Program-made: the position numbers and the translations under genes
The notes under the pieces: generated by a model
The model's database searches: none
The model's input: the letters and a program-made list of their open reading frames with translations, nothing else
Told to the model about the DNA's origin: nothing
Shown: one piece after another, positions 1-2,032 of the stretch
Layout of the letters: the number at the start of each line of letters is the position of its first letter
How positions within the stretch are numbered: the stretch's first letter is position 1
Assembly: GCA_945890885.1 (NCBI GenBank)
Contig: CAMDDF010000007.1
Coordinates: forward strand, 1 to 40,579
Direction: 5' to 3'
DNA: 40,579 nt
Source: Candidatus Kuenenia stuttgartensis
Lineage (GTDB): Bacteria > Planctomycetota > Phycisphaerae > Sedimentisphaerales > CAMDDF01

Positions 1-623
1 GCACGCTGAGGCACCGTTAATGTTTTTACACCATCACCGAAATATTCCACTACACAGCCGACGTTGCCCTTAGTCGAAAGTATGCTCAAAAGTTTTAATA
101 TGATATCTTTGCTGGCGACCCATTTGTTGAGCTTGCCGGTAAGTTTTACACCTATGACTTTCGGTGCGGTAAGGTAGAATGCTCCGCCACCCATTGCTAC
201 GGATACATCCATTCCGCCAGCGCCGATGGCTAACATTCCAATGCCGCCGCCGGTTGGTGTGTGCGAGTCGGAACCTAATAATGTTGCACCAGGCCTGCCG
301 AAGCGTTCCAGATGCACCTGATGGCAGATTCCGTTACCGGGACGCGAGAAATATGCGCCGCATTTTGCAGCTACCGTTTGCAGGTATAAATGGTCATTGT
401 GATTTTCCGGGCCGAACTGACTCATATTGTGGTCAACATAGCTGACGGAAACTTCGGTTTTGACTCGGCTGACACCCATTGATTCAAAGAGCAAAAATGC
501 AGTTGTGCCTGTTGCGTCCTGCGTGAGGGTCTGGTCTATGCGGATGCCGATGGGCTGACCCTGCTTTAATTGGCCCTCGACAAGATGCGATTCGAGGATT
601 TTGTATGTTAGTGTTTTTGACAT
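1..623 (-). CDS. acn: Aconitate hydratase, N-terminal part (cut by window edge)
   Basis: Aconitase interconverts citrate and isocitrate through cis-aconitate in the TCA cycle, using a [4Fe-4S] cluster. The minus-strand translation (about 207 residues, running off the left edge) begins MSKTLTYKILESHL and contains the family blocks IDQTLTQDATGT (about residues 29-40), YVDHNMSQ and GSDSHTPTGGGIGMLAIGAGG-type sequence (starting near residue 118). These are typical of the aconitase/3-isopropylmalate dehydratase large-subunit superfamily; the length and block spacing suit aconitase better than LeuC. The cluster-binding cysteines lie beyond the window. An in-frame ATG four codons upstream (635) is also possible; neither start has a strong ribosome binding site. 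A good promoter lies just upstream (667-695), so the gene seems to be transcribed independently of the small RNA behind it. Confidence 0.9.
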   Translation of the reverse strand, partial: MSKTLTYKILESHLVEGQLKQGQPIGIRIDQTLTQDATGTTAFLLFESMGVSRVKTEVSVSYVDHNMSQFGPENHNDHLYLQTVAAKCGAYFSRPGNGICHQVHLERFGRPGATLLGSDSHTPTGGGIGMLAIGAGGMDVSVAMGGGAFYLTAPKVIGVKLTGKLNKWVASKDIILKLLSILSTKGNVGCVVEYFGDGVKTLTVPQR

Positions 624-666: not shown

Positions 667-695
667 ACTATAGCTTATTTACGCCAAATTGTCAG
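667..695 (-). promoter_or_regulatory. Sigma70-type promoter of the aconitase gene
   Basis: On the minus strand CTGACA (695-690) and TATAGT (672-667) are separated by exactly 17 bases, each one mismatch from consensus. The predicted start near 660 gives a leader of about 25-37 bases. It begins immediately after the T-run of the upstream terminator, arguing that aconitase and the small RNA are separate transcription units. Seen by pattern only. Confidence 0.6.
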
Positions 696-696
696 C

Positions 697-731
697 AAAA
701 AAAAGGCCGCGGGCTTTTAACCTGCGGCCTT
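697..731 (-). terminator. Rho-independent terminator of the candidate small RNA
   Basis: On the minus strand AAGGCCGCAGG (731-721) pairs with CCCGCGGCCTT (713-703) around a short TTAAAAG-type loop: 11 pairs with one G-U. It is followed directly by eight T residues (704-697, partly overlapping the stem foot). This is a textbook intrinsic terminator pointing leftwards, ending a transcript that contains no gene. Confidence 0.85.
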
Positions 732-940
732 ACAACCATCCGTGAAACCCTGATCTGACATCCGTATCAGAGGATATATCATTCTGCGCAAACCGTCATC
801 CATGACGTAACACACGCGCAACGCGGGCGCAGAACTGAACCTATGTATTACTAATCGAAAAAAATCCATCCATGTGATTATACTCACCATCCTCGCGATT
901 TTACGGCTTCCCCATTACGAATCGACCGTTAAACTGCTAA
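697..940 (-). ncRNA. Candidate CsrA-sequestering (CsrB/RsmZ-like) small RNA
   Basis: No protein frame fits this minus-strand stretch, yet it is bracketed by a good promoter (945-973) and a strong terminator (697-731), predicting an RNA of about 240 bases. It carries five GGATG motifs (892-888, 871-867, 801-797, 763-759, 741-737). Four sit in apical loops of small hairpins: TCGC/GTGA (898-884), AATC/GATT (879-863), CGTCA/TGACG (807-794) and TCTGA/TCAGA (771-754). An eight-pair stem, TTCTGCGC (834-827) with GCGCAGAA (789-782), encloses the third. GGA in hairpin loops with context A-N-GGAUG is the known CsrA/RsmA recognition pattern, and decoy RNAs of the CsrB/RsmZ type carry many copies. CsrA is known in planctomycetes but none lies in this window. 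The assignment as a Csr decoy is inference; the existence of a structured RNA is better supported. Confidence 0.6.
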
Positions 941-944
941 CGGA

Positions 945-1005
945 ATTCTAATGAACTATTGGTACGCGGGCAAGCATAAACTTTTCGATTTTTTAATTTT
1001 TTTTA
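945..1005 (-). promoter_or_regulatory. Promoter with A-tract UP element for the small RNA
   Basis: Minus strand TTGCCC (973-968) and TAGAAT (950-945) are 17 bases apart. Upstream, between about 975 and 1005, lie phased A-runs like an UP element, typical of strongly expressed stable RNAs. The start should fall at about 938-942. Confidence 0.55.
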
Positions 1006-1114: not shown

Positions 1115-2032
1115 TTAGAACAAATATAAAATTTTTCCAAGCATCGACGGAGCAGTATCATCTTCATCAACGTCAAACCAATGGACGTTTTCGAACCGTT
1201 TAAACCACGTTCTTTGGGCTTTTGCAAGCTTACGCGTATTTATTTTTATTTTCTCTATCGCATCAGCGAGTGAAATATTTCCCTTCAGATGTTCAATTAT
1301 TTCCGCATAACCTATTGCGCATGCGGCCTGTGGGCTCAACGGCTTATCTTCAGCAAGCAAAGATTTCACCTCGTCAACAAGCCCATCAACAATCATTTTT
1401 TTTACCCGCGCATTGATGCGTCTGCTTTCGGCTTCTTTTTCACGGCGCAAACCTATTATTAGCCAGTCATCCGGAAAGGGATTATCAAAATGATTTTGAA
1501 AACTCGAAATCGGCTTGCCTGTGAGTTCATAAACTTCCAGAGCGCGAATAATGCGTTTTTCGTCGTTGACGTGAATCCTTTCCGCTGCGGCTGGGTCGAT
1601 ATATGTCAATTGTTTATGCAGAGTTGCAAGTCCGTCAGCTGCGATACGTTTTTGGAGTGTTTCACGGATAGCGACATCTGTGCCGGGGCCATCAAAAATG
1701 CCGTGGAGCAATGCCTTTATATACATCGCGGTGCCGCCTTCAGCCAGTACAGGTTTGCCAAGCGACTGCATAAGGCTGATTTTTTCATTGGCACCAGTTA
1801 AAAACTGGTCAACGCTAAACGACTGGCTCGGTTCAACAATATCTATCAGGTGATATTTAACCTGGCTTTGCCGCTCTTTAGAAGGCTTTGCGGTACCGAT
1901 ATCCATTCTGCGATAAACCTTCATAGAATCTATGCTTATGATGTCTGTGCCAAGTTTTTTGGCAAGTTCAAAAGATAAACCACTCTTACCTGAGGCGGTA
2001 ACTCCGATTATAAGTATTTTCTTGTCAGCCAT
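1115..2032 (-). CDS. miaA: tRNA dimethylallyltransferase
   Basis: MiaA transfers a dimethylallyl group to A37 of tRNAs that read codons starting with U, the first step towards ms2i6A. The 305-residue product has the usual length. It shows the N-terminal P-loop GVTASGKSG (residues 10-18), the block IISIDSMKVYRRMDIGTAKP (30-49) with the conserved DS and GTAKP elements, HLIDIV, and the C-terminal TRKLAKAQRTWFK motif. The P-loop has Val where Pro is usual. The gene is divergent from ispA, whose pathway makes the allylic diphosphate donor. The ATG at 2032 has only an A/T-rich upstream region and no clear Shine-Dalgarno. Confidence 0.97.
   Translation of the reverse strand: MADKKILIIGVTASGKSGLSFELAKKLGTDIISIDSMKVYRRMDIGTAKPSKERQSQVKYHLIDIVEPSQSFSVDQFLTGANEKISLMQSLGKPVLAEGGTAMYIKALLHGIFDGPGTDVAIRETLQKRIAADGLATLHKQLTYIDPAAAERIHVNDEKRIIRALEVYELTGKPISSFQNHFDNPFPDDWLIIGLRREKEAESRRINARVKKMIVDGLVDEVKSLLAEDKPLSPQAACAIGYAEIIEHLKGNISLADAIEKIKINTRKLAKAQRTWFKRFENVHWFDVDEDDTAPSMLGKILYLF

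Follow-up and report, generated by a model that had tools for sequence, protein, structure and literature searches.

Antagonism of CsrA has been described in two forms, as small RNAs together with BarA-UvrY in the Gammaproteobacteria and as FliW in other bacteria (PMC4682653). Zere et al. found that 340 of 346 genomes with CsrA carry either BarA-UvrY or FliW, and FliW has been suggested as the CsrA antagonist in Planctomycetes (PMC4682653). A Csr-like ncRNA has been mentioned in Leptospira (PMC8668096), so a Csr-type RNA outside the Gammaproteobacteria is not wholly without precedent. The candidate RNA described here, from a planctomycete host, falls outside every Rfam family tested and may function like CsrB/RsmZ.

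The window, meaning the whole stretch of DNA that was analysed, is 40,579 nt long. All features of the candidate RNA are on the minus strand, between the miaA and aconitate hydratase genes, and miaA, the candidate and aconitase share that strand. The features are as follows, in the direction of transcription.

1115-2032, minus strand: miaA, tRNA dimethylallyltransferase, the upstream gene (Pfam PF01715)
981-1004, minus strand: A/T-rich tract upstream of the -35, UP-element-like (from sequence)
968-973, minus strand: -35-like hexamer TTGCCC (consensus match only)
945-950, minus strand: -10-like hexamer TAGAAT (consensus match)
697-938, minus strand: predicted sRNA of ~242 nt, its putative start placed 7 nt past the -10 (from sequence and folding)
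888-892, minus strand: GGAUG site 1, GAGGAUG, with a drawable hairpin at 898-884 (motif and fold)
717-890, minus strand: ORF of 57 aa, judged not coding (codon score, Pfam)
867-871, minus strand: GGAUG site 2, CAUGGAUG, with a drawable bulged hairpin at 879-863 (motif and fold)
782-834, minus strand: enclosing stem of 8 bp, 834-827/789-782 (folding)
794-807, minus strand: hairpin CGUCA-UGGA-UGACG with GGAUG site 3 at 801-797 (motif and fold)
754-771, minus strand: hairpin UCUGAUA-CGGA-UGUCAGA with GGAUG site 4 at 763-759 (motif and fold)
737-741, minus strand: GGAUG site 5, CACGGAUG, just 5' of the terminator stem (motif and fold)
697-731, minus strand: intrinsic terminator, 8+4 bp stem, -18.8 kcal/mol, U8 (folding)
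667-695, minus strand: promoter-like CTGACA-17-TATAGT between the terminator and aconitase (10 of 12 consensus matches)
3-623, minus strand: aconitate hydratase, the downstream gene, truncated by the contig end (Pfam PF00330)

A sequence-only reading had reported five GGATG motifs and a sixth, GGGGA motif in this interval. All were recovered on the minus strand, the five at 892-888, 871-867, 801-797, 763-759 and 741-737 and GGGGA at 913-909. GGAUG is the core of the CsrA SELEX consensus, RUACARGGAUGU (PMC7652899). Four of the five copies extend to YANGGATG, with an A two bases upstream; the base before GGA in these four sites is C or U, where the SELEX consensus has a purine. Dinucleotide shuffles of 940-732 gave a mean of 0.49 GGATG copies, so that the five CsrA-consensus sites of this non-coding candidate are in clear excess (P=1e-4), and the four YANGGATG copies compare with a shuffle mean of 0.06, four or more appearing in 0 of 20,000 shuffles.

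The array was also set against 3,380 intergenic windows of 200 nt (~3 Mb), drawn from the host genome (0.84 Mb), one relative (1.6 Mb) and the neighbourhoods of miaA genes (0.6 Mb). Five GGATG copies occurred in just one of these, the candidate locus, and the runner-up held three. Within the 0.84 Mb of host sequence, which is about 40% of that genome and the part to which the own-genome ranking applies, the candidate had the highest GGA-hairpin score and five GGATG copies vs two for the next locus; a triple-GGATG pattern run across the whole host genome matched the candidate locus only. Some GC-rich 5-mer is found five times over in 0.4% of the intergenic windows, which means that a repeated 5-mer is in itself nothing exceptional. 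The notable point is the identity of the recurring motif, the CsrA core.

An RNA of ~240 nt is probably made from this locus, judging by the predicted signals at its two ends. The UP-element promoter proposed earlier corresponds to a promoter-like site, TTGCCC-17-TAGAAT at 973-945, which has 9 of 12 consensus matches over the -35 and -10 together and an A/T tract upstream, and which is a consensus match only. The strong terminator proposed alongside it is also supported by folding, with a stem at 731-703 (-18.8 kcal/mol) and a U8 tail at 704-697. The candidate thus has a promoter and an intrinsic terminator of its own, both as predictions. That the terminator is strong and that aconitase has a promoter-like site of its own upstream both favour an independent RNA. 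A GacA/UvrY-type palindrome (TGTAAG-N6-CTTACA-like) was not found in 940-1114 with up to three mismatches allowed. A terminator-like sequence that resembles the candidate's (86% over ~34 bases) occurs at unrelated places in two relatives (L003:1501-1535, L004:1501-1534).

The RNA strand has a single sizeable ORF, of 57 aa at 890-717, whose frame is open over most of the 938-697 interval, as a small protein gene would require. However, its codon score of -0.198 bits/codon is lower than that of all 176 real 57-codon gene pieces and resembles off-frame sequence, and it has no Pfam match. An AGG abuts its ATG, leaving no proper ribosome site. The small-protein reading, which we consider very improbable, was dropped on codon usage, and the earlier description of the interval as non-coding stands.

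Like CsrB and CsrC of E. coli, the candidate would be an intergenic RNA that codes for no protein, ends in its own terminator and has repeated GGA(UG) motifs and some hairpin loops, and its length of 242 nt is close to that of CsrC (246 nt). It differs from both in having about half their GGA density (7 GGA over 242 nt; CsrB has 22 over 369 nt and CsrC 14 over 246 nt), in lower predicted accessibility, in the lack of an Rfam match and of a UvrY-type palindrome, and in its planctomycete host. The RsmX, RsmY and RsmZ RNAs of Pseudomonas have a small number of GGA sites, as does the candidate, which differs from them in having neither an Rfam match nor a GacA-type palindrome. The AYGGAY motif of TwoAYGGAY RNA (RF01731) is present in the candidate as ACGGAU and AUGGAU, but the window contains no match to that family.

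No Rfam family was matched by the candidate at the gathering threshold, which excludes the known unrelated RNA family that had been named as a possible refutation. CsrB (RF00018) and CsrC (RF00084) gave no match even at E up to 10, while the E. coli csrB and csrC genes used as positive controls were both recovered. A match to ar35 (14.2 bits, E 1.8; gathering threshold 45) was at chance level and was rejected.

The earlier description of the fold was borne out in part. Its eight-pair enclosing stem is present (UUCUGCGC/GCGCAGAA, 834-827 with 789-782), and the four GGATG motifs that it placed in the apical loops of independent hairpins can be drawn in this way, but the result is not the favoured fold. 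The drawn four-hairpin fold has an energy of -43.5 kcal/mol vs -73.1 kcal/mol for the MFE structure, and forcing all five GGA to be unpaired gives -65.3 kcal/mol. Site 763 is the only robust loop among the five, with a loop probability of 0.51-0.88. Site 801 has a loop probability of 0.13 globally and reaches 0.95 only when pairs are limited to 30 nt, and sites 892, 871 and 741 have values of 0.28 or less. The whole-RNA fold has a z-score of -1.07. Under the same procedure, the mean unpaired probability of GGA was 0.15-0.44 for the candidate, 0.69-0.76 for CsrB and 0.42-0.63 for CsrC; the candidate is therefore predicted to display its sites worse than CsrB and somewhat worse than CsrC. Because many CsrC sites are also predicted to be buried, we regard low exposure as a weakness and not as a refutation. 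The proposed CsrB/RsmZ-like layout is upheld in its GGAUG array, promoter-like site, terminator, non-coding character and accompanying csrA gene, but not in most of its hairpins.

A genome without csrA had been listed as grounds for rejecting a decoy, and this is excluded, as the host genome has one csrA. Its 63-aa product shares 51% identity with E. coli CsrA over 55 aa, keeps L4 and R44, and matches solved CsrA structures. FliW, the alternative CsrA antagonist, is a protein and was not detected in the host genome (95.6% complete). Flagellin is encoded there, and its presence in the absence of FliW strengthens the case for a decoy.

These observations lead us to propose, tentatively, that the candidate is a lineage-specific CsrB/RsmZ-like sRNA that binds CsrA, a reading suggested by sequence features that we hold to be quite possible but short of probable. 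A stand-alone RNA of ~240 nt would be transcribed on the minus strand from ~938 to 697, would bind CsrA via several of its GGAUG sites, and would draw CsrA off mRNAs by titration, as CsrB/RsmZ do. If each CsrA dimer bridges two sites, the five sites would load about two dimers. The absence of FliW alongside flagellin favours this interpretation, whereas the low GGA density and the failure to find a homologue count against it.

Homologues were sought in ~160 genomes of the order Sedimentisphaerales, from families other than that of the host, and no conserved RNA family was found among them. Blastn against 59 genomes of the order, a triple-GGATG pattern search across the order, the same kind of pattern combined with a terminator, and a single-sequence covariance model of 733-836 run on 159 genomes all failed to return a homologue; three weak covariance-model matches (E 0.1-0.6) proved to be random when inspected. 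No homologue lay beside miaA or aconitase in relatives, and 1.6 Mb of the FliW-less relative G103, scanned for GGA-hairpin arrays, held nothing decoy-like. Decoy RNAs diverge fast in sequence, so the absence of a homologue at this distance is expected under a decoy and under chance alike.

Several pattern matches were rejected. An apparently conserved GGATG element in ~10 genomes was the antisense of pyrG, recognised by translation as the C-terminus of CTP synthase. The antisense of the pyrG 3' end has three GGATG with conserved spacing and is a trap for motif searches of this type (L174-L177, L182, L183). The inspected matches to the pattern with a terminator were gene ends or coding sequence, such as the end of an elongation-factor-Ts-like gene (L195/L216), and had no array. 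Separately, tandem 21-base repeats with TACGGATGACC were seen in two different families of the order, L170 (G076:C29:4485-4636) and L171 (G131:C142:5400-5509).

The main rival to a titrating RNA is a role in cis at aconitase or miaA, in which the element would be either the miaA 3' UTR or an attenuated 5' leader to the aconitase gene whose read-through is under the control of CsrA or of a different factor. We consider this unlikely, although the arrangement of the locus is partly consistent with it. The terminator lies 74 nt before the aconitase start codon, site 5 is only a few nucleotides from the terminator stem, so that a bound protein could affect termination, the three elements are co-oriented, and no terminator is obvious by eye immediately after miaA. 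In E. coli, miaA is itself under CsrA and CsrB regulation (PMC12249760), which fits a cis role, and it may not be by accident that the candidate follows miaA. On the other side, the CTGACA-17-TATAGT site separates the terminator from aconitase. The prenyl synthase-dxs-nadK-miaA block is kept in relatives and the region after miaA is variable; aconitase directly after miaA was never seen in the relatives examined, an arrangement confined to the host genome. The aconitase itself is ~86% identical to ~660-aa proteins of relatives, and the 500 nt upstream of aconitase held no GGATG array in any of 29 relatives. Taken with the gene order, this indicates that the array is not a conserved leader. The break in synteny falls at 623-1115 of the window, between miaA and aconitase.

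Chance, in which GGATG merely happens to recur in an intergenic stretch or in an unrelated sRNA, is similarly unlikely in our view. It would account for the ordinary fold, for the lack of conservation in genomes of the order from families other than the host's, and for a recurrence of a kind that some GC-rich 5-mer reaches in 0.4% of intergenic windows. It would not explain why, of all 5-mers, the one that recurs is that expected of a CsrA site, or why four of the five have an A two bases upstream, nor a shuffle P of 1e-4 or less. The candidate could alternatively be a genuine base-pairing sRNA, independent of CsrA, in which GGAUG is a repeated seed that pairs with CAUCC in mRNAs. Base-pairing sRNAs are known that carry a short seed several times over in exposed loops, and ar35, the candidate's sole weak Rfam sRNA match, is a family of alphaproteobacterial trans-sRNAs. 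That match is at chance level, however, and GGAUG is the CsrA SELEX core in a genome with CsrA, and we consider pairing quite unlikely.

Turning from the locus to the order, CsrA was present in 126 of the 146 Sedimentisphaerales genomes, whereas FliW exceeded the cut-off in 12 of the 146, all in family f5. All 12 of these FliW genes adjoin csrA, within a few hundred bases. Most CsrA-bearing genomes of the order are thus without detectable FliW, a real gap in the account of how CsrA is restrained, and the RNA with the GGAUG array represents a concrete candidate CsrA antagonist in one such genome. It is conceivable, though rather unlikely, that those members of the order which have CsrA and flagella but no FliW independently evolved RNA sponges for CsrA, the candidate among them, in which case it would be a convergent equivalent of CsrB/RsmZ from outside the Gammaproteobacteria. 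The number of csrA genes also varies within the order, with four copies in one genome (G142) and two or three in several others.
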